From assembly GCA_023053545.1 (NCBI GenBank), contig JAKZAN010000002.1:7250790-7314789 (forward strand): a DNA stretch of 64,000 bases, written 5' to 3'. Below are positions 3,001 through 57,600 of the stretch, piece after piece. Positions within the stretch are counted from its first letter, which is position 1; the number at the start of each line of letters is the position of its first letter. Both the position numbers and the translations under genes were made by a program. The DNA comes from Lepidurus packardi. Lineage: Eukaryota; Arthropoda; Branchiopoda; Notostraca; Triopsidae. The notes beneath the pieces are model-generated. The model saw nothing but the letters and a program-made list of their open reading frames with translations. It ran no database searches and was not told the origin of the DNA.

Positions 3001-4499
3001 AACGTTCTGTTTCACCTCGGTTGGCCTGGCAAACTTCCCTTCCCGGAATTACCCCTGAAGTTTTCCTGCCATCAGAGCAACACCCGCTGAAAAGCCCAAG
3101 AAATTTTCCTTTCAAACGCTGGTTTGCTTCTTAGAGACGTTTCCTGTATGTATGGCCTCTAGCCAGGTAGGAAACTAAGAGAATCTTGTTTTTTTTCTCT
3201 AGATTATCATGTTTAACTCCATTTTAGCAATAAGTGTAGAACGATGACTCTGTTTATAATCAATAAAGAGTGTTAGAGGATATTCATAAGAAAGGTAAGA
3301 TTGGTTAAAAAAATATTTCCCAATTTTTAGTGTCACATTTCGGTAGAATTCTTCGAAAGAAAATCGTTACCATAAATCGGAGCAGCAATTGTGGCGGCGA
3401 AGACCTTTCTCAGTTTGCGTAGGCTAAGACTTTTAAAGTTTATGCGATTTACCTCCCACGTAAATGCCTAATAAGGACCTAAGAATTTTAAAATCAATTA
3501 AACAACGTTGACATAAGTGTTCCTCGTTTCATTCATCTTTTATCAAAGATATACTTATGCAATTTATGTGTACCGAAGGTTTTTAAATCATGAAAGAAAC
3601 CATTAAGCGCCAAAGACTATCAATGAGAATACCCCACGCATTTATAAATCCCTTCTTGCGCATGAGCAAACGCGAGTCGTGAAGAGTTTCAGAGACTTCG
3701 TTATTGTAAAAGATGTGAGAAGTCTTGTTATTAACAAGAATGCTTAAAAAAAAAAAAAAATACGAAGAGATGGAGGAGGAAAAGGAAAGAAGATCCGGTC
3801 GCTTTTCCGTTCCATGGATGTTTCGCAGGAAAGAAAAAAACAAAACATTTTAGGATCTTCCGGTCGTTTTTCCGTTCCATGGATGGTTTGCAGTAAAGAA
3901 AAAAAACTTTAGGAGCGATTTCAGCATTGTTGTATTGCGGTGTGCAAAGCGTGAAGCAACTAGTTTTGGGTAATCGTAGCACTGTTCCAGTTTTCACCTC
4001 TTCTAAGAAAAAGGTATGGATAATTGGATTATTTAACAATTGTTGCAAGTTTTGCAAAGTTCGAAGTGTAGTAGAGAGGTTGTTTTTTTTACGAATTTCT
4101 GCATCCACTAATGAAGGTTAACTGTGCTAATGGCCGTTTCGCGTTTGTCAAATGGGTACGATTATTCGTTTACGTTTTTGCTCTGAAAATAGAGATTTTT
4201 AATAGAGTAGAGGATAAAGTTCGGAAGTAAGGATTACATTTAATGAACCTATTATTTAGATTAATTATTAGCGCTATTCTGGATGGAAAAAATGAACTCC
4301 CTATACTAAAGAAACTGGCTAATTAGTTAGGTAGTTATAGGAATTTAATTTTACAAGATGCCGTTCGAACATTAATTTCAAATGCTCCCTAGGTGGCGGA
4401 ACGTGTCAAAGAAGAAATGTTAACTGGATTGAAATGTCGGAAACAAAACACTGGATTTTCGTTTGCTTGATGCCAAAATTTTTACTAATCGTTTGAAAT
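1..4499. other. Gene-free 5' flank
   Basis: I see no supported gene here. The open frames on both strands are short, lack family resemblance and have no consistent splice sites. The only clear internal structure is a local duplication at 3790-3905, listed separately. A TGA stop at 4494-4496 lies in frame directly before the UVRAG start codon, so UVRAG coding does not extend into this stretch in that frame. Confidence 0.6.
3790..3905. repeat. Imperfect tandem duplication, about 62 bp period
   Basis: The segment near 3790-3840 (GATCCGGTCGCTTTTCCGTT, then CCATGGATG and a GCAGGAAAG tract) recurs at about 3853-3905 with a few substitutions. Both copies end in an A-rich run. No coding role is visible. 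Confidence 0.7.
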
Positions 4500-7400
4500 A
4501 TGGAAAGTGATAAATTTAAGATGCATAAAACTTCAGCATATATTAACCAGAGTCAGGTAAAGTCTTATAGTAAATAGTTAAAAACTGAAACTGAATTGTG
4601 ATACGATAGAATAGAAATAACTTGAAATATTCATTGTTGTGTCTTTTGCAGCTCAAGCTGAGGCATTTGGTCCAAATATCTGCCAGGAATCTCGAAACAG
4701 ATGTACTACACAACGTATTAAGCCCTGAAAAGGGTCTGGAATTAACGAAAACACCTCTTGTTGTACCTCAGTGCGACTTATTTTACCACACGCTACACGT
4801 AACGCCCATGTCTTCGCCGTTTTACACTTCTGAAGCTCTTCCTGGTCCCCATATCGACTGGCCTGACATAGAGCTGCATAAAGTGGCTGAAACTACCACG
4901 ACTTGCATCCCAGGTTTTCCCGTTGTTAACTTTAAAACATAGTAGAATTTAACTTGTTTATATTTTTTAGGGGTGGTGGTCCGAATTTGGCTCAAAGCTA
5001 CAAGTCCACAGCTAATATTCACTTGGGGGGTGTATTTCCGAGGCTTACAGTATCTAGGCAATCAAATGCCCAAAGAACACCAAAATTTGGAGCCCAATAC
5101 TCTCATTTTTGGCTTCAGCAGAGGCTTTTTCACTGCGCCGAGTTCGCTTTTAACGCATTCTGTTCCTCAGTTGCCTTCTAAGAAGCTCCTGGTGTCCGAA
5201 GTATCCAAAAGTTATACTCTCAAAAGCTTCTGCAGGTTAAGAGTCTTAAACAACAAACCAATAGTATACTGAATAGCGTTAATTATTTCGGTAGATTGCA
5301 CTGCACCCAGCGCTTGGTTCATAAACAAGGGACGGAAGCGGATCGTTTACGAAGTGAAATTAATGCTTTAGATACCAAATTGCTTACTTTTCATTGGCGA
5401 GGAACTGGGTCTCATGGCCGAAGTTTTCTGGCGTTAGAAAACGCTACCAAATCGAACGTTGACAGAAAATACCACCGCGAACTATTAGTGGGCAGGGAAA
5501 CGGCGCAATTTCGTGTAAGTTTACTGCGTCAAGAAAAGCTCCAGCAAGAAAAACAGCTTCTTTGCCTCGAACATGCCTTAAGTGACTCGCGTACCCAAAA
5601 CAAGACCCAAAGTAGGCACAGCTCTAGTCTTTTCACTAAAGCATCCGAAAGTTGTCAATTTAAACTTAAAAATATTCCTTTTTTCTTCCTTTCCTAGGTC
5701 AAGAACTCAAACAAAAGTACCTAAAATTGAGGCAAGATAAGGAAAAATTGCTTGAAATCATCCGCGCAGCCACAGACACAAAACTACGCTTGCTAAATAC
5801 CCTAAACCAACTGATGTTCCGTCGAAAGCAATTAATTTCTGAACTGAACTTTATCTATCCCATATCTCAAGTAAATTCGTTGTTGCTATTGAAATTAGGC
5901 ATTCAAATTCTTTTTCTGGGATTTTTTTCCCCCTAAAGAATCCCGACGACAGTTTTGCGATTGCGGGAATACGGCTGCCCAATTCAGAAGACTTTTCTGG
6001 ACAGGATGAAGTAAGCTTGAGTGTGGCATTGGGCTACGTAGCCCACGTGACGCAAATGCTGTCTTATTTCCTCCAAGTTCCTCCTCGTTATCCTATTGTG
6101 CAGTGCGGCTCGCGGAGCCGGATTGTGGACCAAATCACTCGGAAGCTACTCGACCAAGACAGAGAGTAAAAAAGAGAAAAGAGCCTTCAAAATTGCTTAT
6201 TGATTTCCTATATTTTATTTCTTTTCTGCCTTTTTTAATCCTGTTTGGGGAAAAATAGGTTTCCGCTCTACAACAAAGGCAAAGATAAAAGCCACTTCAA
6301 TTATGGCGTGTATTTACTCAACAAGAACATTGCACAACTACGCTGGTTCTGCGGTTTAGCAACACAAGATTTGCCAGCCACCTTGCCAAATTTATCCACA
6401 CTTTTGCAGCTGCGTTTCCTCAAGTAAGCTCTTTACTTTTTGTTTCAAGTAAACACGTGCCTACTTGGCGTAGATTAGTAGAAATGACTCAGAATTTTTA
6501 AAACGGATCGAAAGAAAACATAGCTTTCCCCGTTATTCTGGGACTTGACATTTATTTACGTAATAACAAAACTGTTTTCTTCTTATCAGCGATGAATCGG
6601 GAGGTTTATTCCAACGTGGTACACAACGACGCCTCTCTACGGATAGCCAAAACACATTATTGGCTATTCCGGACATTCCTGACTACGAGGCCAAACCCAA
6701 GTACCACCCCGTGAATCCCAAAGAGTTGAAAGGTCATCGAGCGACGCGATCTCTAGGCGGGAGCGAAGCCAGTCTCAATTCTATGATACGGAATGGCTTC
6801 CAAGCCTTGGCCTACCCTTTCCAGCCAAGCGTGGGTCAGATGGGCAGCTCTACCAGCTTGGAAAGCCATCGAATCCTGTCCAGTGCTGACGGCCTGACCA
6901 GTTTAATGATGATTGACAAAGCAGCTTCCAATTCGCCCAAGGAAAAAGAAGAAGTCTTATTCCTCCCACCCATGTCTGCCCTTCTCCACACCGCCACCTT
7001 ACCCCTTCTCAAATTAGCCAGTTCTGCTAAGAGTACTTCCTTGGATCAAGGTTTGGACCGACACTGGAAGGAAGGCATGTTGGGAAAAAATCATCGAACT
7101 AATTCGTTTCCACATCTGGGTCTGGAAGCTGCGTACCCAAACGTACCCGTGCGTGCAGCTCCTTTTGGAGTTGTGTTGCACTTGCCTAAGCTTGAACAAA
7201 CTTCAGTTTACTCCCAGGAAGAGCTGATGTGGTTGGCAGAGCCAACGATGACGTCATTTGACCCAAACGTGAGACTAAGGTCCCATATTTGTGAAGATTC
7301 ACCCCTGGCAAATACGTTTTCACCAGGAGAAATTATAGTCATTGGAAAAGAGGAGAAGAGCGAAGAAAATCAGCCGAAAGAGTTGATTGTTACAAAGGAG

Positions 7401-7571
7401 CATTTGAAAATCGAAGACGGTGATAAGGAAGAGACTATTATTGAAGAAAGGGAAAAATCCAAGATGGTGGCTGATTTAGATGATTTATTTTCATCCATGA
7501 CTCTGAGGACGGAGGCGTTGGCGAATTCTTCAAGTTCTTTTAAGTTATATAGGGCCAGACCCCCAGTGTAA
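4500..7571 (+). CDS. UVRAG: UV radiation resistance-associated gene protein (UVRAG)
   Basis: UVRAG is a Beclin 1/VPS34 (PI3K complex II) subunit acting in endosome maturation, autophagosome maturation and membrane trafficking. Model: join 4500-4556, 4652-4913, 4971-5235, 5295-5611, 5698-5870, 5939-6165, 6259-6423, 6590-7571, giving 815 residues; human UVRAG has 699. All junctions are GT-AG and in phase. The N-terminal part shows the C2-type block [11 protein letters not shown], then VVVRIW and GLQYLGNQ. Residues about 195-350 are charged and helical, as in the family's coiled coil. The diagnostic stretches are [23 protein letters not shown] and [17 protein letters not shown] (residues about 360-480), which closely match vertebrate UVRAG. 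The start is chosen because an in-frame TGA lies just upstream and exon 1 reads directly into the conserved block. The last exon encodes a poorly conserved, Ser- and acid-rich tail of about 325 residues. Identity is secure; exon 1 is the least certain part. Confidence 0.93.
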
Positions 7572-8282
7572 TACCATTTAAAGGAAAAGGAGTGATGTGA
7601 AGCGGCCAAAAAACGGTTTGGTTAAAGGAAATTAGAATCATTCCGCATTTCTGGAAGAAATTGCTGCCTGTAAAAATTTTGTGTGGTGGCTAGTCATTCT
7701 TGTTTGACAATCCTAACGGGTTCTTGGTGAGAAGTGTTAAAATTATCTGTAAAGAATGTAGAGCCTAGAGTTTATGTAAAAATTTAAATTATATTCGTAA
7801 TAGATGGAATACCGCCAGATCTATACTCCTATCGCCACCTATTGGCTTACTAAGAAATATGTTGAACGAACAACTAGCACAGCATAGTGGATAAATCTGA
7901 AATTTCGTACACTACTAAGACTGACGAAGCAACAAAATTTTTGTTGTGGGTAAAAGAAATAGCGTTTGATGGTGTGTTTTCTTTCGAAAAATACGAGTCT
8001 CAATTTTTCTCACGCGTATCTACTATTAGAGCGTTGCTAAATGGTATGTGAGAATTTGTATAGCCTTTAGGTAGTCAGTTTTTAAATATTTTCTTCATCT
8101 AGGTTTCAGAGGCGAGTTTGGCTTTGCATTCGCGTTTAAGATGGGTGAAAGCGTAAAGAAAAGAAAAAACAATCATTAACAAGTAGGTTCAAACTACAAA
8201 CAACATTGCACGGTTAAAAAGATTACGTGATACTAACTATGAATGTTTAGTAGTCTAGGAAATACGAACTAAATTCATCAAC
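7572..8282. other. Intergenic: UVRAG 3' end and zinc-finger gene 5' region
   Basis: This is AT-rich sequence without a supported gene. It should hold the UVRAG 3' UTR and the promoter/5' UTR of the next plus-strand gene, but I cannot pick out a convincing canonical poly(A) signal or core promoter by eye. Confidence 0.5.
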
Positions 8283-10451
8283 ATGGAGATCGAAGAAGGC
8301 AAGCTATCCTTACGTTTGCAGTTGGACGAAGCTGACTTGAGCAAACTTTGCCAAAATTTAAGTGCGCCTTTGGTCCAACTTCCTAAAGATTCTAGCGCAA
8401 GTGAAACGACATTTAACATTGGGTATTTCGTGAAAGGGTCACTCGCCATTGACCACGTGAACGATATCATTCTTCTCAATATCGACCTCCAGCAATCCAC
8501 ACAAACTCGTGGGACCCAAACCGGCGAGAACTCCTCCACGCCCAGACCTACTCCGTCAACCCCTAAACTTCCTTGGAATATCCACAGCACGAAATCCAAG
8601 TCCGAAGCCCCTCCGGCCTTCTCCAAATCGACAGAAACCCCTCCAGAATCGAATGTGCCCCAAGTTCCAACGTTTACCATTGATAGCGACAGTAATGACA
8701 CAGTAACGAAGCCGGTCCCTTGTAAACCCCCTATCAAACACAAACCACCCTTAAGCCTAAACTGGGGCATCAAAACTAAGTCCGGTAAAACTTCCTGGAA
8801 AGTCCTCAAGCCCCTCAAACGTTTACCCCCTCCCAAAGCCTCCCTGTCCTCAGTTTCGTCTCAAAAAAACACAAAATTTCGCTATCGTGATCCCTATCTT
8901 AAAGTTATCTACCGGCTTAAAAAGAAAGGAGTCGAAATTCCTGCCGAAAACGAGCCCAGTCCACACGAAAACCCCAATACGTCTTCCAATTCCAACTCAG
9001 AAACTCAAGCAGCATTAGAAACTCCATCTTTTGCCCTCACAGACCCCAAATGTGATTCTCCGACTGAAAATTCGTCCTCCGGCAAAATGGTGACTGTCGG
9101 AGGCCGCGAACCCCGCTACGTTTGCAACTTATGTGGCGCGAGATATAGATCCAAGGTCTGGTTCGATGAACACACGTGTTCCAAGCCGAAAGAAGACAAA
9201 GCGTATGAATGCCCTCATTGCAGCCAAATCCTCCACACCAAGTTCTCCCTGGACAACCACGTACGCCTCCATGCGGGTGATTTGCCTTACAGCTGCTCGG
9301 TCTGTAAGCAGTGCTTCAAGTGCTATAGCACTATGCGTTACCATGAGCGTAAACATATGCAAGGCAAACAGTATGAATGCTCCTTGTGCGATAAATCCTA
9401 TACTCACATCACTAACCTGAAAAACCACATGAAAACTCACACGGCGCCAATTCCTGAGCTTCCACCAATCCTATTACTCCCAAGCCGCGCCCCCGAGGGT
9501 GTAAACACCTTCGAAACTGCTGTTGCAGAAGCTTGTGCGGATTTAGCCCAGGAAATCCCTGTCACAACGTCCAATTCGACAGAAGAAGTCGAGCACATGG
9601 AGCCGTTACTCGGGAATGACGTCACAGAGGAAGCGGATCAGGAGGAGGAAGCTCAGTACGTACGGTGTGGAGTGAACCGGCGCAAACGCAAAGTTCGCAA
9701 CAAGGCCGGAAGAGCGAATTACGAATGCCAAGTGTGCGGGATTTCCTACAATTCCCGCATTTGGTTTGAGGAGCATCAGTGCTCGGGCACCAAACGACTC
9801 GTTTATCGCTGCGAAGAATGTGGGAAACTTTGCTACACCAAGTTTTCCTATAGAGCTCATGTAAATTTGCATAAAGGCTTATTACCTTATGAATGCGAGA
9901 CTTGCCACGAAAAATTTGATAGTATTTCAAGGCTGCGGTATCACGAAAAGAAGCACGGTGATAGTTTCCCGTACAAGTGCCATTTGTGCGATAAAGCCTA
10001 TACGCACGTGAGTAACCTGAAAATCCATTTATTGGCTCATAGTGGGTCGCGACCGTACCAATGCGAACATTGCGGAAGAATGTTTAGTACCGCAAGCAAA
10101 TTAAAACTGCATATTAATACCCATACGAGGGTTAATCAAACAGAGTGTCCTGAATGCAAGAAGTTGTTTTCAGCGCGTGAGCAAATGCTGAGGCATATCC
10201 GACGTATGCGTTGCCCGGTCATCAAAGAGCGTATGCGCAGCAATGGGGGCGCCCCAGGGGAAGGCGGGGAAGTTGAAAAGGTGGGCATGGTTGATGGAGA
10301 AGTAGAAAATGTGGAGGTGGACATGAGCGGGTTGTTGCCCGACCAAATCGTGGACACGGTGGTGGTCATTTGCGAAAAAGGCAGCGAAGGAGAATTTGCC
10401 TCGGAGGATGTCTTTCTGCTAACCCAAGATTCCGATGCTGACAAAGCCTGA
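8283..10451 (+). CDS. C2H2 zinc-finger protein with ten fingers, single exon
   Basis: An uninterrupted ATG-started frame of 722 codons. Residues 1-75 form a folded-looking leader (MEIEEGKLSLRLQLDEADLS) that I do not recognise. A Pro/Ser-rich linker follows to about residue 275. Two zinc-finger blocks follow: four fingers from about residue 279, then, after an acidic and basic spacer, six fingers from about residue 480 to 645. Fingers 1 and 5 are atypical, ending in HTC and HQC so that Cys replaces the last His. The rest fit CxxC...HxxxH. Within the blocks the order of finger types repeats, which points to an internal duplication. A sequence-specific nuclear DNA-binding protein is the likely role. 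The orthologue is unknown to me. An AATAAA lies at 10754-10759, 303 nt after the stop. Confidence 0.9.
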   Translation: MEIEEGKLSLRLQLDEADLSKLCQNLSAPLVQLPKDSSASETTFNIGYFVKGSLAIDHVNDIILLNIDLQQSTQTRGTQTGENSSTPRPTPSTPKLPWNIHSTKSKSEAPPAFSKSTETPPESNVPQVPTFTIDSDSNDTVTKPVPCKPPIKHKPPLSLNWGIKTKSGKTSWKVLKPLKRLPPPKASLSSVSSQKNTKFRYRDPYLKVIYRLKKKGVEIPAENEPSPHENPNTSSNSNSETQAALETPSFALTDPKCDSPTENSSSGKMVTVGGREPRYVCNLCGARYRSKVWFDEHTCSKPKEDKAYECPHCSQILHTKFSLDNHVRLHAGDLPYSCSVCKQCFKCYSTMRYHERKHMQGKQYECSLCDKSYTHITNLKNHMKTHTAPIPELPPILLLPSRAPEGVNTFETAVAEACADLAQEIPVTTSNSTEEVEHMEPLLGNDVTEEADQEEEAQYVRCGVNRRKRKVRNKAGRANYECQVCGISYNSRIWFEEHQCSGTKRLVYRCEECGKLCYTKFSYRAHVNLHKGLLPYECETCHEKFDSISRLRYHEKKHGDSFPYKCHLCDKAYTHVSNLKIHLLAHSGSRPYQCEHCGRMFSTASKLKLHINTHTRVNQTECPECKKLFSAREQMLRHIRRMRCPVIKERMRSNGGAPGEGGEVEKVGMVDGEVENVEVDMSGLLPDQIVDTVVVICEKGSEGEFASEDVFLLTQDSDADKA

Positions 10452-10784: not shown

Positions 10785-11040
10785 TGTTGCAAAACGTTCT
10801 CCGGAAAAAGTATGACAAACGGGTGTCACTCAGTTTGAAAATGGGTAGTTGGATTGAAAATGAATTATATTAGGCTAGTTAGTTCTCATGAATTTTCGTT
10901 GATGAGAATCGTTAATACTTGTACTTTCTTTCACTCCATTAGCGGAAAAAAATTCATAGTTTAAAAAGTGACAGGGTGGTGTCACTTTTGACAGTGGGAC
11001 ACGTTACGCACGTTTGTCAGTAAATACGGAGAACGTGTTG
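10785..11040. repeat. Dispersed repeat with ACGTTCTCC / GGAGAACGT signature, copy 1
   Basis: Contains AAACGTTCTCCGGAAAAAG followed by GACAAACGGGTGTCAC, then CGTTGATGAGAATCGTTAA, a GGTGTCACTTTTGAC block, and the reverse-oriented CGGAGAACGTGTTG at 11027-11040. The same blocks, in other orders and orientations, recur at 32760-32800 and 36895-37500. No coding capacity is apparent, so I treat it as a non-autonomous element family or the remains of one. Confidence 0.6.
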
Positions 11041-31330: not shown

Positions 31331-32829
31331 TGTTGGCTATTCTCCCACAACTTCACCGTGGATGAATCGCTAAAGGAAGCTGAGCAATGTGTAATTGGAG
31401 AATTTCTTCACTTCCGGGACATTGCAGACGACACCAGCCTACAGTTTTTGAAAACCGGGCTAGGCAATGATGGTGGAAACTTCTCCAGCTGGGACTTTGG
31501 TTCCAAAGCCCTCCGAAATATTCCTGCAGGAAGACAAAATTGTTAGGAAATGGGAGAAATAGACGTCTTGGATTAGAAAACAGGATAAATCTTAAATTCT
31601 AATCCTCTTAGAACGCCAAAAATGCGAGACGAAACACTAAATGTGACTAGATTGGCACAGGATGGTTGTGCTTAAAGTAATCCTGGCTGTTAAACCCATC
31701 AGCAAAGACTTTCGCTCATTCAATTAACCACTTAACAGCGTCTTGACATGGGAGATGAATAGTTACTGAGACCTTTTGAGGTTGCGAAGCAGAGGGGAGT
31801 CATATCGCGGGTTCAAGAACGCAACTAAATCGGGGGAAGCAGGTTTTCAAGCTAAGCTGACAGGGATTTAACTACTTGTATCTGCTGGTTTCTCTATCTC
31901 TGCTTATTCTCTATGGCTTCTCTATTTTCCGTAATTCTAAAATCTTTCACGAAGTTGAAATGTTTGGGCTAAACAAACTTCTGTTCCCAACTACTTACTT
32001 CAATTGGCTTAAAAGGGAGCCTAAAATTGCTAGAGAATCCATCAAGAACTAAATGTTGCCCTTTTATAAAGGCAACTGTGAACCAAGGATTCTTCTTTTC
32101 TCTTTTTGCCACGTTCACAAGAAGATCAAAGAAAGACAAGTATAAAACAAGTAAATATTTACCTGAATATTGCTTGGGTTGCGGAAATTCTGACACACAA
32201 AAACTATGCGCAAATCACCGTGGCGTGTATCGTATCAAACACGGTTGGAAGAGACGGCAAGGAACCGCCCACACATGGGAAGAGGGCTTTAGACCACACG
32301 ACACAGATGCTTGTTCTCAATCCAATTTATGCGTCACCCGAACGCTTTTAGCTACCTCCAAGAGCTGCAATAGTTGCGTAAACGTATAAGAACTTGAGTT
32401 AATATCTTTTTGAGCAACACTCCAATCCAGAAACAAAAATTTACTCCATTTTTGATCACAATATTGACAGCCCCGTCACCGGCCGAACCCGACTGACAAA
32501 ACTACTTCTTACATTAGCTTAACTGCTCTACCGCTAGGTAACGCGCATGGGTCTCGACTTATGAATAACAATTAATATGGAATCAGGCCGTGATCGTTCA
32601 CCAGGGAGAAAAGGTTTTCGTTTGCACTGCCCAGGCCTGTCACAAAATGTGCTACGTCGTCAGATGTTCACGGCAGCAAGAAGATGCATAAAGAGCCTGT
32701 TTTTTCCTGACGAGGAAGCTGTAACTTTGATACCAGAATAAATAACTTGAGTCAAAAACGTTCAACACGTTCTCCGAAAGACTGACAAGTCGGTGTCATT
32801 TAAACCTGTGTCGAAAACTGACATCGATG

Positions 32830-33240
32830 TGTCGTTTGTCCTTTGGTGCTATACGAAAAAGCGGGGCCAACTCTGTAAGGCTCCTTGGGCGTTTTCGAGA
32901 TCAATTACTATTATAAAAGGGTCAGACTTGATAAAAACGATAAAATCATACGTATCGGAGCCTTTTTTGAGTACATATGAGCTTAACAGAGTTAGTTTTG
33001 TTCAGATGGGGAAACCTTGTCACTTTGTCCCTTTGTACTAGACGCAAAGGCGGGTTAACTCTGAAAAACGCCCGCAAAGGGTTAACTCAAGTACTATTAT
33101 AAAAGGGTCAGATTTGCTAAAGACAGTAAAGTTATGAGTATTGGAGGCCGTTTGACGTACACATGAGCTTAAAACAGTTAGTTTTATTCAAGATCGGGGA
33201 AACTGTGTCACTTGTCCCTTCGTACTACACGCAAAGGCGT
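32830..33240. repeat. Two diverged direct repeats of about 200 bp
   Basis: Blocks TACTATTATAAAAGGGTCAGA, GAGCTTAA..CAGTTAGTTTT and TGTCCCTT.GTACTA.ACGCAAAGGCG appear in the same order twice, at roughly 32830-33050 and 33060-33240. Many substitutions separate the copies, so the duplication is not recent. It is non-coding as far as I can see. Confidence 0.65.
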
Positions 33241-33263
33241 GCCAAGACGCATGCGAGGAATCT

Positions 33264-33455
33264 GTAGTGGAAGGCATGCGGGCTTTACTTTCCAGAAGAA
33301 AACAATATGTGCTTTCGTACAAAGCCGAGGCCGTTCGAAAATTTCGAAGTCTAGTCTACGAGCAAAGCAATGTAGAGAATAATTCTGACTGCTCATCTGG
33401 GGAAGACGATTCGGACCAAGAATTGGAAGACGAATTCATAGTAAATATCATTTAA
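33264..33455 (+). CDS. Possible terminal exon or very short gene, acidic tail
   Basis: From the first ATG (33276) an open frame of 59 codons reads MRALLSRRKQYVLSYKAEA, then a Ser/Asp/Glu-rich tail (SSGEDDSDQELEDEF), and stops at 33453-33455. A TAG just before 33264 could be an acceptor. An AATAAA follows the stop by about 14 nt (near 33470), which is what makes this more than a chance frame. I could not find upstream exons and I do not recognise the sequence. If real, the gene converges on the minus-strand gene ending at 33608. Confidence 0.3.
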   Translation, partial: VVEGMRALLSRRKQYVLSYKAEAVRKFRSLVYEQSNVENNSDCSSGEDDSDQELEDEFIVNII

Positions 33456-33607
33456 GCTAACACTTATTTAATAAAGCTTAAGAATGCTTTATTTATAAAT
33501 GGTTCACACATTGGTTCACTTCGTTACTCCCGGACAGTTATCTTCCCATTCGAATTCTATCACCTATTGTAGATCAAACAACAATCAAGGCTAACGTCTA
33601 CCGTGGT

Positions 33608-35054
33608 TCAATTGGATCTTACCACGATCTCCTCTTGTGTGTCTTGGGCATTTCCAATAATCTCACCGGCTGATGGGCTTATAACCTGTAAATTACTCTA
33701 AAACGAGGAAACAGTAAATCGGAAGAAGATAAGACGCTAGAAGGCAAAGCAACAAAATAATGGAAGCTTTACTTCGGTCGGTAGGGCAACGGTGTGAATC
33801 TGCTTCAGCTGGTCATTCGTCCGTCCGGTCACTCGTCCGTCAGGAAATTCAATCACCTAATATTTTACGGATAAAAATATACTTTCCTTGTGTCAGAAAT
33901 CCGGTGACCCTTAACTACTCAATTTAGCATAAAGATATTCAATAGAGTACTTACCACATCAAGCTCAGGTTCAAGTTCTTGGTTACCTTGAATCGAATGC
34001 ATTGCTGGTGAAATAGGCAGCTGTCTTCTTCTAGTCTTCTGGAATGAGTCAATGATGAAACAAATGCTGAGACTAATTTGTGAATAGCTGTACTTGGTTG
34101 CTTTGCTCTTCTGCCATTTTCGTTCTTTTGGCTTCGTTCTCTAATTAATTTCGTTCTCTAATTAATTAAGCGATTACTTATAAAAGGTAACACTTACTTG
34201 AACACGTCTTGAGATCTTTCGCCTTCCTCGCCTTTGTGCGTTTTTTCTTCTCCGTTTTAGTAACACCGGATGTATGAGTAGACTCTTTTCCGTGAGTTAC
34301 ATCAATTGAGAGTTCATCTACGTCTTCCTACATTTTTAACATTAAAGCGCTCAAATATATGAATACAAAATTACCTTGTCAGCCGTATGATCTTCGTCAG
34401 CCGACACTTCCGCTGAATCAGGAAGCGGTTGGGAATCCTCCCTGAAAGTAACGAAGACTTAACATCTTATAATAGTGTTAAAAGGGTATACTACATGGCA
34501 TTATTAAACACAATAGATTATACGAATGCCTGTAAAAGTTTTGTGACTGAACTTGAGAGTGTACTTGTCAACTGCAGAAATGTACTCCTCCTTCAGGAAG
34601 GTAAGGATATGATGGCCTCTTAGGCTTACATCCCTTCGCCCGCAGCTTTTCTCTTCCACAAACATTTTTTCAATTGTTTCGTTATACGTTAAGAAACTTG
34701 ACCTGTAGCTAGGCTTTCGCCCTATAATAAGCAAGACGCTTGCGTAACCGACACCTTCTAATTTTGCCATCTGTAAAATAGTTTTTATTTTCATAATTTA
34801 TGCGCACATAGTCTATGGAAGAAAAGTCTTACTTGTTTAAAAATAGACTGCTTAATGCGCATTAATGAGTTCGACTGTAAGGAAGCCTTCTGCCCTTTCT
34901 CAAAACTTTCTCGCAGCTTTCCATTCCGCTTTTCATTTGTCACTTCTTTGAAATTCGTTGGTTTCTTACATTCTGAACAAGTTTTTCTTAAGTAATGTAG
35001 TGGCTCACTGCAATGCGGGCACGGCTTTTTATTGCTAATATTCCTTTTAATCAT
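33608..35054 (-). CDS. Zinc-ribbon-like orphan protein
   Basis: Not recognised. Model (complement): 33608-33697, 33773-33856, 33955-34038, 34094-34140, 34198-34327, 34375-34441, 34565-34770, 34833-35054; 309 residues, all GT-AG and in phase. Residues 12-33 carry a CPHC and CSEC pair, a CxxC-x10-CxxC zinc-ribbon-like knuckle. A basic helix-rich stretch follows, then a second block (MAKLEGVGYASVLLIIGRKP, about residues 75-140). The remainder is polar, acidic and then Lys-rich, with a late motif VIEFPDGRVTGRTNDQLKQI. The last exon could alternatively use a GTAAGA donor at 33622 and continue elsewhere; here it is read through to TGA. The start codon is chosen because the sequence around it is duplicated at the start of the neighbouring gene. 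A nuclear role is only a guess from the basic, zinc-knuckle character. Confidence 0.55.
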
Positions 35055-35215
35055 TTCCAGTGAACTACCAATTTTCAAATACCAATGTTTGTAAACATAA
35101 ACCAGAAAGAACAACAGCACTCCGAGTGGCGATGTCCCTAAGCTTTCGCCCAGAGGTTTATAGCAAATTCTTCTGATACACTAGTTTCAGTATTCGACCA
35201 GCGGGATACTTTACA
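35054..35215 (-). promoter_or_regulatory. Duplicated upstream/start segment, copy A
   Basis: Upstream of the orphan gene start this strand reads TTTACAAACATTGGT, then TTTGAAAAT and, after the ATG, AAAAGGAATATTAG. The same succession occurs before and at the start of the gene at 36747. Further upstream, GGCGAAAGCTTAGGGACATC and CACTCGGAG recur in a third copy near 36935-36980. The segment also overlaps the last codons of the next gene (stop at 35211), so the intergenic distance is only about 156 nt. Confidence 0.6.
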
Positions 35216-36747
35216 TCTCTTCGTCAGTTGTTACCGGCGAACCTGTTGCAGATGGCACCTCATCGACAAAACCGCTCAGTCCGGACATGCATCGTACCCA
35301 TTCTTCAAATGCGTCCTTAAATGCGATTTGGGAGATTACCTACAAGAAAAGAGGTTACAAGAGAAATAGAATAAGTAGTAATTGTTATGCAATCAGTAAG
35401 TGCAATACTTACGCGTACATCTAAGTCTTTTGAGAGACGTTGAAGGGAAGCAAGAAACGCTCTAACTGAGAGTTGAGGACTGTCCATTTTTAAAAAGAAG
35501 AACGTGCGTAGTGTTTCGGTAGAGAATATATAGCACCCTTTAAAGTAAGAGTAGAAAAAAGTTAGGCAGCCAGTCTTTAAAGGTCCCGTTTACCTCCGTA
35601 AATACTGGACGAACCAGCGAAATAGTTAGAAGCAACGAGATTTTCCCAATCGACTTTATGAATGAAAGTGCACGAAAGGCATTTCACGGCCGGAAGGAAT
35701 ACATCTTGTTGACCTAAGGGGGATGGAAAAAGAAATGCATGTGATAAGACATTACTGCTTATCTGACAGACTACCTCGAACGGACACGAATACGCAGGGG
35801 ATATCAATAATGCACTCGACTTCTTCCGAGCCGCAGTTTTTACAATTGCTTTCAAGTCTTGCCGGGATTGCACGATCTAACACAGATGAACGAGTTTAAT
35901 GTATTTCCTCATCGATATATTACGAATATACCATCGTTGCCCAGAGCGTATGATCCATCCTGCTGTAAAACTAAAGTCTGACAAGGTTTAAGGGTCGTCT
36001 TAAAGTCAACAACCCAGGTATGACGAACATGCGTAGCTAAGAATTTGTGTTTTAGTGCGTCACATGTGACGCACAAAGCCCCACAGCCGTCTTCACACCT
36101 GTAATGCTTCACTAATTGAAAAACTAGAAGCACTTAAAAATGTACCTCATAATCGCCGGATTTGAGTTGCAATTAACACAATTCTCATTGGTGAACGGAG
36201 GAGATTCTTCTTTAAAAAACGCAGTGAATATTTCCGGCCTTCTTGCTTCCCACTCTGAAGATCTCTTTTCTCTCCTTTCAGTCCAAGTCCGAGAAGGGGG
36301 TGGATTTGGTTGTCCTTCAGTGAACGTATTTTCATCCAAAAGTTTCCTGAGCCTCACTGGCTCAACGCGATTACCTACAATAATAAAACATTTAACCAAC
36401 GAGAATAAATATTCTAACTTAGCATCCTTACACGCTTGGGCCTGGGGAATTTCTGGAGCTTCGGACACGAAAGGTTCAGAGGTCGACGCACCATCGTTAA
36501 GATTAAGAGTTTTCGCCATACCAGTGGTCTTAGTTTTGGAAATACGCGATGGTCGGTTTGAGGATTGCAATGTTCCGGCTCTTGTGTGTATATACAGTTT
36601 ACCACGACTTTTTCCGCCATTTTTTCTACTCTTTGCTTTTTCAGCTTCCTTTTTCCTTTTCTGTACAGCTTCATACCGTTCTTTCAACATTTCACCGATC
36701 GTCGAAGCCAACTTCTGCTCGGTCTCCCTAATATTCCTTTTATTCAT
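35211..36747 (-). CDS. CxC cysteine-cluster protein related to KDZ transposons, transposase domain absent
   Basis: Model (complement): 35211-35339, 35413-35537, 35594-35713, 35775-35876, 35932-36098, 36146-36374, 36432-36747; 395 residues, GT-AG and in phase throughout. The N-terminal 100 residues are basic and helical. Then comes a zinc cluster (CVNCNSNPAIMRCEDGCG, ALCVTCDALKH, later HVRH), a Cys pair (CKNCGSEEVEC) and a KCLSC block. After this, ETLRTFFFLKMDSPQLSVRA resembles the segment that leads into the transposase in Kyakuja-Dileera-Zisupton (KDZ) elements. The frame stops soon after, so the catalytic RNase H-like domain is missing. Spliced, uninterrupted exons argue for a retained host gene rather than a dying transposon. 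The family assignment rests on recalled domain architecture, not a search. Confidence 0.6.
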
Positions 36748-37829
36748 TATTCTTTCCGATTTTCAACAACCAATGTTTGTAAACAAAAGCCCTAAGGAAG
36801 AACAACAGCACTCCTAGGGGCGTAAAACGCAAATTCTTAAGACACGATGGTGTCATATTTCATCTGGGTATATTGTACATATATTCGTAACTAAATCCGG
36901 AGAACGTGTTGGAAACCAGATAGGAGAACAACAGCCCTCCGAGTGGCGATGTCCCTAAGCTTTCGCCAAGAGGCATAAACCAAATTCTACGACAAACGGT
37001 TGTCATGTTTGACCAGCGGGGATAGACGTTACACCAATTTTTCACTTTTTACCGGAGAACGTGTTGCAAGTTTTAACGATTCTCATCAACGAAAGTTGAT
37101 AAGAATCGTTAACCTCACCTAAACTAACCTAAAGCTAAGCTAACATAAACTAAACTAACCGAACGTAACCTAATTCATTTCTAACCCAACTACCAAATTT
37201 CGAACTCGAATTTCCAACTAAGGTACTCCGGTAAAAGCTAGCAGTGCGATACATGACACCCGTTTGTCACTCCTTCTGGAAAACGTGTTGAAAACTTGTA
37301 CTTGGTCGAAAAACTTGGTCGAATGTTAAAAAAGTAGTGTCAGTTTTGACTCCCGTTTACGTGACACCACTTTGTCAGCTTTCAGGAGAACGCGTTGATT
37401 AATACAAGAGGTTCTCAATGTTGCAACACGTTCACAATGTTCACAACACGTTCACTAGTGTCACAATGTTGCAACACGTTCTCGGAAAAACTGACAAACA
37501 TGTTTCACGTATCGCGCTGCTGGTTTTGTCCTGTAGCCCATCAGTGACCCATCTGTACCCATCTATGTCTGCAATAAACCATGTAAACTTGATAAACTGA
37601 ACACTAAAATTTAAAAGGAATGCATTAGCAAAAATACGTCGCATTTTAGGATCAAAATTTCAATTGCATGTAGTAACTTTTCCTTACAAAAAGAAATGGT
37701 AATAAAGAGCTAAATTTAAGCATTCCTGTCATTTGAGCATCTTATGATCTTTGTAATTAATATGCAAGATTTCCACTTTCCAAAAAAGAGCACTCGGACA
37801 AAAAGTGTTCATCATCTTCAAATTCATTC
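36748..37829. repeat. Repeat-rich intergenic block
   Basis: Contains copy B of the start/upstream segment (about 36748-36860), a third copy (about 36927-37035) that matches copy A better than B, and several GGAGAACGTGTTG-type signatures (36898-36911, 37052-37066, about 37275, about 37385, about 37475). It also holds a palindromic hairpin at 37075-37110 and a degenerate CCTAA-like run at 37111-37176. No gene is visible. Confidence 0.65.
37075..37110. repeat. Near-perfect hairpin with GAAA loop
   Basis: AACGATTCTCATCAAC, then GAAA, then GTTGATAAGAATCGTT: a 16-bp stem with one mismatch and a four-base loop. One arm of it (CGTTGATGAGAATCGTTAA) is found in the repeat cluster near 10897-10915, so it belongs to the dispersed repeat. 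Confidence 0.8.
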
Positions 37830-54600: not shown

Positions 54601-57600
54601 GGGGTCCCTAAATCAGTAAATAAGAAATACTTAACATTTCTTGTCGTTGTTTAAATATACGGAGAAATCAAACACATACCACAACGGAAACTCCCTTGTC
54701 TCCAGGCGAACCAGGCAAACCCCGATTTCCTTGAGGTCCTGTAGGTCCTTGTGCACCCTTTTCTCCCGGGAATCCAGTTAGTCCAGGTTCACCTTTGCCA
54801 CCCTTGTCAGCAGATGGCCCTTCCCTGCCTGGAATACCAGGATCACCCCTTCCACCAGGGGGCCCCATCAAGCCTTAAACATAATAACATGTTGAACCGA
54901 AAATGTAATTTTTAGTGCAATAGACAGCAAAAAAAGAATTTAAAAATAAAGCACACAAGTCCAATGTTTCAGTTATACGCTTCTTGCCATCATAGACTGA
55001 ACAGTAATTGATATTAAAAAAATTAGATTTAAAAATAGAAGATTTAAAAATTAGAAAAATCTCAACAAGTTTAAGTGTTGACTACTTCTTTTTAATTGGA
55101 CTTGAGCTTCTTTCTTTCAAATGATTATTGCTGCAGAAATACGAGAAAAAATGTACCTTGTGGGCCAGGGTAGCCTGGTTCGCCATCTCGTCCGTTTAGT
55201 CCAGCCGGTCCAGTAAATCCAATAGGTCCTTGTTTCCCAGGGGGGCCTGGGATACCTTTACCAGTCTGCAGAAATGATTTAGTAATTATAATTATTACTT
55301 TAATATTCCTTAACCCAAAGATAACCCTCGACGATATCTCAACCTTACAAAGAAATAATGTTTCATCTAATGTATCAGATAAAATGGTGCCTTATCATGG
55401 CCCACATTTTTTCTATAGTCGGGCCACCCGTCGCCAAATCATTCTTATCAAACCCTGTCAGTGCTGTAGTCCAATTCCTAACCTAATACTTATTTAACCA
55501 GCTTAACTAGCATTAAAAAACACGAATGGGTAACTTTTGTTATAGAAAATGGGCAGAATGACTTAATAATTATAATGATAACTTTAATATTCCTTAGCCC
55601 AAAGATAACCCTCGACGATATCTCAACCTTACAAAGAAATAATGTTTCATCTAATCTATCAGATAAAATGGTGCCTTATCATGGCCCACATTTTTTCTAT
55701 AGTCGGGCCACCCGTCGCCAAATCATTCTTATCAAACCCTGTCAAGTGCTGTAGTCCAATTCCTAACCTAATACTTATTTAACCAGCTTAACTAGCATTA
55801 AAAAACACGAATGGGTAACTTTTGTTATAGAAAATGGGCAGAATGACTTAATAATTATAATGATAACTTTAATATTCCTTAGCCCATAGATAACCTTGGA
55901 TGATATCTCAACCTTACAAAGAAATAATGTTTCATCTAATTTATCAGATAAAATGGTGCCTTATCATGGCCCACACTTTTTCTATAGTCGGGCCACCCGT
56001 CGCCAAATCATTCTTATCAAACCCTGTCAAGTGCTGTAGTCCAATTCCTAACCTAATACTTATTTAACCAGCTTAACTAGCATTAAAAAACACGAATGGG
56101 TAACTTTTGTTATAGAAAATGGGCAGAATGACTTAGTAATTATAATGATAACTTTAATATACCTTAGCCCATAGATAACCTTGGATGATATCTCAACCTT
56201 AGAAAGCAATGAATGTTTTCATCTAATTTATCAGATAAAATGGTGCCTTAACATGGCCCAAATTTTTTCTATAGTAGGGCCACCCTTCCCCAAATCATTC
56301 TTATCGAACCCTGTCAAGTCCTGTAGTCTAATTCCTAACCTAATACTCATTTAACCAGCTTAACTAGCATTAAAAAACACGAATGGGTTACTTTGTTATA
56401 GAAAATGGGCACAATTTTTACACTTACCCCAGGTAAACCGGCAGGCCCTGTTAATCCAGGTAACCCGGGTATTCCACTAATGCCTGTATCGCCCTTTTCA
56501 CCGCCTCTGCCTGGTAACCCATTGAGACCGTCATTTCCACGATCTCCTTTTTGGCCAGTAGCACCGAAAGGTCCCGGTAAACCATCTTTTCCCTAAAAAA
56601 ACACACAAATCAGATTACTGTAAACGAAAGACGTATAAACTTTACTCTGATTCCAGGTGGGCCAGGTAAGCCTTTTTCCCCCTTCATGCCAGTCGTACCC
56701 CAAGGTCCGGGCTGTCCAGTATTCCCTGGTGATCCAGGTAAACCCGTCATACCCTTGTCCCCAGAATACCCTCGATCACCCTTATCTCCCGGCGCTCCAA
56801 TAACGGAAGTTCCGTTGGATACTTGTTCGTTATTGCCTGCATCGCCTCGAGGTCCGGGCTCACCCTTTTGACCTGGGGGTCCTTCAAACCCAATGCCCAT
56901 GGCTCCTTTCTCACCTTTGGGTCCAAGCGGTCCAAGAATGCCCTTCACCACGAAACAAATACGTTAAAAGATAAGCAATTAAGTAAATCAGTAAATGAAA
57001 ACTAGCTCAAAACTAATTGGGCAAGATTTTTAAATAAAATTGATGTGATTGATTGAAATTGATTTACAGGTCGTCCACCGTCGCCTTTGTCGCCTTTTGA
57101 TCCAGATAAACCGATCCGTCCAGCGATTCCAGGTGCACCCTGAATACCGTCCAAGCCAGGTTCACCCTTCTGACCCCTTTCGTGTGGCCAACTGTACGCG
57201 GGCTCACCCTTGTCTCCTTTGAAACCGGGGGATCCCGGTAAGCCCCTCGGCCCAGGAACGCCAGACGAGCCGGGCATACCAGGTGCTCCCTATGAATGGA
57301 AGCAAACTATGATTAAACTGAAGAATATTTTGCCATTTTTTCCAAAAATAGATTTTAGGAAAAAAAGCTCTATAGAGCTACTTTAGTTTCCCGTTAATTA
57401 TTCAATCGACATATGTAGGGATATTCATTATAAATTGTGGTTTCAAACGAGCTTAGGTCGTTATTAATTTGAAGTATTGACGTGAATCAATTATCATATT
57501 TACATCAGTTCCATTGCAGCCGTCCAAACCAGGCAAACCACTTGGGCCAGGGGGTCCTTGTACCCCTGGAATACCGTTAATTCCGGGGAAACCTGGCATA

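Follow-up and report, generated by a model that had tools for sequence, protein, structure and literature searches.

Two neighbouring genes in a 64,000-nucleotide stretch of the genome of the notostracan Lepidurus packardi (assembly GCA_023053545.1, contig JAKZAN010000002.1, positions 7,250,790 to 7,314,789; hereafter the window, to whose own numbering positions refer unless a contig is named) encode different proteins and share an upstream segment together with their first codons. We conclude, with a probability of about 0.93, that this segment belongs to a two-gene DNA transposon of the KDZ (Kyakuja-Dileera-Zisupton) type as its terminal inverted repeat (TIR), which supplies the upstream region and the first codons of both genes. 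The element would be approximately 8.44 kb long and carry a CxC3/KDZ transposase gene (gene B) and a zinc-ribbon companion (gene A), one at each end and both directed inward. Judged from the sequence, the unusual feature of the family is that the start codons of both genes lie inside the TIR. Besides forming the transposase-binding ends, the TIR would hold the promoters of both genes, as in maize MuDR; this promoter role is suggested by analogy.

The initial annotation had placed the starts of the two genes at 35054 and 36747 on the minus strand, described a shared upstream region with shared first codons, and pointed to a third upstream copy resembling that at 35 kb. These observations were confirmed by pairwise local alignment of three minus-strand segments (A, 34981-35256; B, 36674-36919; C, 36900-37076). 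Segments A and B scored 95 and segments A and C 144, while the best of 1000 dinucleotide shuffles reached 29 and 33, respectively, and the top score among 959 pairs of random 260-bp windows was 39. Since both scores lie far above these maxima, chance similarity is rejected. The shuffles covered the A-B and A-C pairs; the B-C score of 40 is uninformative, as these two segments overlap by 20 bases as cut. Gene A starts with ATGATTAAAAGGAATATTAG and gene B with ATGAATAAAAGGAATATTAG; the proteins begin with MIKRNI and MNKRNI and are otherwise unlike. A minus-strand block of 21 bp across the start codons (35035-35055 and 36728-36748) is 95% identical, a block of 52 bp farther upstream (35068-35119 and 36756-36807) 81%. 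The third copy matches the 35-kb copy at 91% over 64 bp (36925-36988 and 35108-35171). It has no start codons and corresponds to the outer part of the TIR: the same terminal motif closes it at 37066, and on the other side it is truncated at 36912, against the end of the gene B TIR. According to the alignment of ends, conservation of the TIR beside the two genes is strongest in TGTTTACAAACA (35086-35097 and 36774-36785), which we take to resemble a forkhead-type binding site.

Further copies were sought in the 108.6-Mb assembly of 344 contigs that contains the window (contigs are abbreviated C plus a number, C2 being that of the window). Searches with 35000-35240 and 36728-36911 gave at least 21 and at least 39 matches, respectively; the match at C2:6623017 covers the entire 241-base first query at 82%. 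On C16 and C5, pairs of matches face each other with approximately 8.2 kb between them, and these pairs delimit two copies that are complete at both ends, C16:1151791-1160229 and C5:11226548-11234991, each about 8.44 kb long ("complete" refers to the ends only, not to intact genes). Their TIRs of approximately 185-220 bp begin with CAACACGTTCTCCGG; the inverted ends are 88.9% identical over 199 alignment columns on C16 and 81.4% over 221 on C5. Both copies are flanked by exact 8-bp target-site duplications, GATAGACC and AATTTCTT. The two elements agree at 97-98% over two long blocks and at 94% over a third, and their flanks differ. Each has gene A at one end and gene B at the other, in convergent orientation. 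Partial copies were found at C38:49663-57027 plus 63077-64140 (interrupted by about 6 kb), at C4:1203225-1211265 (lacking the gene A end), and at C38:166360-167730 and C38:28930-30436. A 1,077-bp fold-back element at C5:12032190-12033266 is 98.7% identical to its own reverse complement, has ends matching the TIR and is flanked on both sides by GTATCCGA, with one extra G.

The assignment to KDZ is carried by four copies (C16, C5, C38 and C4), in which KDZ matches (PF18758) reach 59-64 bits; the KDZ exon of the C16 element (L012 7300-7746; element positions approximately 6009-6455) scores 64.4 bits at a cut-off of 26.6. When the transposase exons were scanned against Pfam, a 149-aa exon matched KDZ alone (E up to 0.01) and a 158-aa exon had no match. 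For gene B of the window, the best Pfam match is CxC3 (E 1.9e-4, 21.6 bits, under the cut-off of 26.6), and a B-box-like match (E 0.0025) also stays below cut-off. Gene A of the window has a zinc-ribbon-like start (CPHC...CSEC) and a weak DZR match, likewise below the Pfam cut-off (E 0.014). Searching solved structures with gene A gave two matches of no use (best E 0.12). Substitution rates were estimated after Nei-Gojobori on three aligned exon pieces per gene, the KDZ part excluded. For gene A, dN/dS is 0.11 between the window and the copy at C2:6.62 Mb, 0.45 between the window and C16, and 0.49 between C2:6.62 Mb and C16; the same comparisons give 0.58, 0.32 and 0.53 for gene B. Synonymous sites are saturated between gene A and its related family. 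By this measure, both genes were maintained as protein-coding in the longer run, in the manner of an active lineage of elements.

How far the TIR reaches inward was read from an alignment of 17 ends, among them the third window copy, which has no inner part, and three C38 ends whose outer part is partly or wholly missing. In the C16 and C5 elements, the gene A and gene B ends agree from the terminal CAACACG to the 19-mer ATGAATAAAAGGAATATTA, apart from an insertion in the A end, and then diverge at once. Upstream of either gene, these complete-end copies thus consist of nothing but the TIR, which also takes in the ATG and the first six codons. Since the TIR ends just after ATGAATAAAAGGAATATTA, both unrelated proteins begin with MNKRNI. 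In the genome, the 19-mer occurs at 11 exact places and two with one mismatch, and all 13 are first codons of gene A (six) or gene B (seven); two of them are the window's own and two belong to a 99.6% identical copy of it. Allowing two mismatches adds 18 places, one of which (C2:6623053-6623071) is the gene A start at C2:6.62 Mb. A backwards control pattern of the 19-mer occurs at 15 places in all. That the segment is a common interspersed repeat unrelated to gene starts, which the initial annotation had named as speaking against its reading, is rejected for the inner part on the 13 places just described, whereas it is true of the outer part taken alone, which is a dispersed repeat.

Relatives of gene A are found at six places with 41-44% identity and at seven places (E < 1e-4) with 30-36%. 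A CPxC...RKxCxxC frame is present in eight of the nine relatives that were fetched and translated; the motif scan was empty for the relative at C1:7.567 Mb. At three of the six places of the 41-44% family (C3:2.014/2.020 Mb, C1:4.228/4.234 Mb and C16:0.631/0.625 Mb), gene A faces a KDZ match in convergent orientation. Both ends could be read for the elements at C3:2.01 Mb and C1:4.23 Mb, whose TIRs span 137 and 146 alignment columns and have their first 13 bases in common with the window family. In these two elements the start codons lie 106-127 bp inward of the TIR end; gene B starts with MSAKRKAAELEKL and gene A with MSWICDTKKTCPNC. The related family therefore pairs gene A with a transposase while keeping the start codons outside the TIR, so the pairing is older than, or independent of, the inclusion of the start codons. 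The right end of the C1 element lies at about 4.2367 Mb; a stretch at 4.2383 Mb that was tried as partner end had no TIR. No TIR was seen in the stretch at C16:622-625 kb either, and the stretches read did not contain the other end of the element at C16:631 kb. A third family of gene A occurs on C2, C4, C58, C100 and C1; the stretches read showed neither a convergent partner nor a TIR, and on C58 and C100 a KDZ match lies on gene A's own strand.

Comparison of the ends points to how the start codons may have come to lie within the repeat. The outer part of the TIR falls into two types, type 1 being found in the C16 and C5 elements and type 2 at C2:6.62 Mb. Between the A and B ends of the same element, the outer part is 98% identical in C16 and 99% in C5, and the inner part 94% in both; at C2:6.62 Mb the inner parts agree at 90%. 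Between the lineages, the identity of the A ends of C16 and C2:6.62 Mb falls to 70% in the outer and 76% in the inner part. In the window, A and B ends are 81% identical in the inner and 69% in the outer part. Ends are thus more alike within a lineage than like ends are across lineages, which shows, for the two lineages compared, that the sequences of a TIR pair evolve in concert. The likeness within a lineage would be the mark of gene conversion between the ends, or of repair in which one end is copied from the other. Under this mechanism, the converted tract would have moved inward past the start codons, the first codons of one gene being overwritten by those of the other. Such overwriting is probable, because the repeat covers the start codons here and does not do so in the related family (two elements read). 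As to direction, MNKR may be the start of gene B copied onto gene A, with AATATTA becoming common to the C16/C5 lineage later.

Several observations weigh against this account of the element and its ends. The older gene B starts share the codons only partly (MNKRK at C2:6.62 Mb, MNKNNT at C2:2.64 Mb). The two ends of the window are of different TIR types and not a matched pair, and the concerted pattern rests on two lineages. An insertion of at least 14 bp is present in all four type-1 A ends read and in no B end read; conversion is thus not continuous. The donor of the N-terminus was judged by eye. The CxC3 match stays below the Pfam cut-off, with one gene B exon of the window scoring 18.8 bits, and a CxC3 search of the genome gave no match, its controls being silent too. 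The first exon of gene B is split and has two stops in the C5 element, and there is a stop in the first exon of gene A in both C38 copies. Finally, the close copies C16 and C38 give a dN/dS of 1.26 for gene A (6 changes) and of 0.76 for gene B (11 changes).

The interpretation put forward in the initial annotation was a segmental duplication of host DNA, in which a promoter with its first codons was copied beside a different coding body and so made a new host gene. In its favour, near-identical upstream sequence with start codons is indeed followed by two unrelated coding bodies, and the region itself is duplicated: the stretch 20451-50154, in which some genes look like ordinary host genes, has a counterpart on the same contig at C2:7512100-7541800, at a distance of 240,861 bp. 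Identity is 99.6% throughout the 29.7 kb fetched, so that the duplicated stretch measures at least 29.7 kb; it represents either a large duplication of recent date or two haplotypes that the assembly retained. However, this large duplication is unrelated to the boundaries of the shared segment, and the segment lies in inverted orientation at the two ends of elements that are flanked by 8-bp target-site duplications. The birth of a host gene by promoter duplication is rejected on the 13 start-codon places found, all of which precede the same two transposon genes, and we consider a host duplication as the source of the segment hardly credible. The proposed fusion of promoter and start codons with a new coding body is thus not supported in its original form; gene A, moreover, is a member of an old family, the remaining branches of which show no more than 44% identity. 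A weaker form of the idea holds, in that the repeat covers the start codons here, unlike in the related family, and the codons of one gene were probably overwritten. The annotation's second suggestion, that both genes descend from one transposon with a conserved 5' end, came close: they are the convergent genes of one element type, and the part they share is its TIR.

It could also be argued that the true TIR is the untranslated part alone and that the N-termini converged, each protein needing a short basic start, for example for nuclear import. Gene B of the related family is indeed basic at its start (MSAKRK), as is gene B at C2:6.62 Mb (MNKRK). Nevertheless, the identity extends through the codons at the DNA level (19 of 19 bases between the A and B starts in C16 and again in C5), and in two related families gene A has a clearly different start (MSWICDTKK and METKWRQNRR), which makes convergence very unlikely. 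Building on the TIR reading, one may further imagine the repeat as a portable cassette of promoter, start codon and N-terminal tag, such that anything just inside it would be transcribed and translated with MNKRNI and conversion would keep the proteins tagged alike. If this were true, the element could turn captured DNA into genes; we regard it as improbable.

The copy in the window is a broken and rearranged remnant without the KDZ core, as far as its comparison with the C16 element reveals (Table 1). The stretch 35249-36912 corresponds to positions 6765-8440 of the C16 element in direct orientation (92.8%), and 32578-35121 to positions 6773 down to 119 in reverse orientation, with large gaps (73-86%). 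A KDZ search found no match in the window, where the region of the KDZ exon is missing. Because the gene A end abuts the truncated gene B in inverted orientation, two convergent genes look like neighbours on the same strand; this order is read as a local rearrangement.

Table 1. Parts of the transposon copy and related features in the window.
Feature	Position	Strand	Extent, evidence or remarks
TIR, gene A end, outer type 2	35035..35248	-	Terminal motif CAACAGGTTCGCCG (35248 inwards) to gene A codon 7; alignment of ends
Gene A region, zinc-ribbon protein, several exons	33737..35054	-	Splice sites read by hand; first exon starts MIKRNISNKKPCPHC at 35054
TIR, gene B end, outer type 1	36729..36911	-	CAACACGTTCTCCGG (36911 inwards) to gene B codon 7; 97-98% to gene B ends of C16 and C5
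Gene B 5' part (CxC3/KDZ transposase)	35249..36747	-	MNKRNIRETEQ at 36747; cut at 35249, KDZ part missing
Third terminal repeat (type 2), outer part	36912..37066	-	Cut by gene B end; no start codons
Mid-element fragment, probably gene B 3' part	33250..33726	+	82% to C16-element positions 2418-1935
Tandem repeats, unit about 186 bp	32828..33245	-	Also inside the C16 element (about 3846-4491)
Inverted gene B fragment, apart from rest of gene B	32578..32762	+	C16-element positions 6773-6492
Short non-autonomous relative, about 251 bp	10790..11040	.	Terminal motif at both ends (left: one base different)

One conceivable origin of this arrangement is an abortive self-integration: a single element would have had its gene A end cleaved and inserted into its own copy of gene B, which would have turned the gene A half around. 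The gene A end is preserved to its very terminus, which adjoins gene B at position 6765 of the C16 element, and the inverted gene B fragment stops at 6773. The resulting overlap of approximately 8-9 bp fits an 8-bp target duplication, and its two nine-base copies keep 7 and 8 of the nine bases of C16. On the other hand, the overlap is not identical in its two copies, the ends in the window are of different TIR types, and a relative at C2:6.62 Mb that shows this order too is joined at position 6729 and lacks its left part. Since two nested elements also explain most features of the window copy, we hold self-integration to be somewhat short of an even chance and a nested pair nearly as likely.

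Further repeats were noted in the window. The inner stretch of the short relative at 10790-11040 resembles the start-codon region of the TIR; no matching target duplication was seen around it. Decayed terminal motifs in both orientations lie at 37277, 37384, 37424, 37444 and 37472, within 37040-37500; together with an 18-nt inverted repeat at 37073-37112, they look like a pile-up of short related elements beside the rearranged copy. Between 43626 and 47111, several pieces of 45-198 bp recur with 97-100% identity, both as direct and as inverted copies, some of them spaced by about 2.9 kb; the cluster resembles mobile elements. At 55176-56394, a 285-bp unit is repeated in tandem, with four copies (72-98%) and part of another, presumably within a long collagen gene on the minus strand, as judged by eye.

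DNA transposons of the Zisupton/KDZ superfamily occur in fish, fungi, algae and diplogastrid nematodes. In the parts of the published accounts consulted, Zisupton is described with 8-bp target-site duplications (PMC12730594) and Zisupton/KDZ elements with multi-exon genes (PMC9297572). The Lepidurus element resembles these in its KDZ domain above cut-off, terminal inverted repeats, 8-bp duplications and multi-exon genes, but unlike the elements in those parts of the accounts it has a second, convergent zinc-ribbon gene and TIRs that include both start codons. MuDR of maize, according to the sections consulted, likewise carries a transposase gene convergent with one for a protein of unknown function, between TIRs of about 215 bp that contain promoters, transcription starting within or just inside them (PMC3440606); Mu makes a 9-bp target-site duplication (PMC2563033). 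The likeness to MuDR, two convergent genes starting at long TIRs, is architectural only, as the transposase match in the exons scanned is to KDZ and not of the MULE/MURA type and the duplication is 8 bp and not 9 bp. Start codons themselves lying inside the TIR, as in Lepidurus, were not found stated for MuDR in these sections. A search of the open-licence literature, as far as its texts were accessible, for start codons or promoters inside TIRs returned nothing matching the start-codon feature, and a search for second genes in Zisupton returned only unrelated work.

The birth of a host gene is not shown by these data; the cause of the shared segment is the end of a transposon. Within the portions of the Zisupton/KDZ literature examined, no mention is made of a KDZ element whose two genes are arranged as in MuDR and whose transposase has a conserved zinc-ribbon partner. 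Thus, one genome shows the terminal repeats of a DNA transposon reaching inward across start codons, and the concerted evolution of such ends can rewrite the N-termini of two unrelated proteins.

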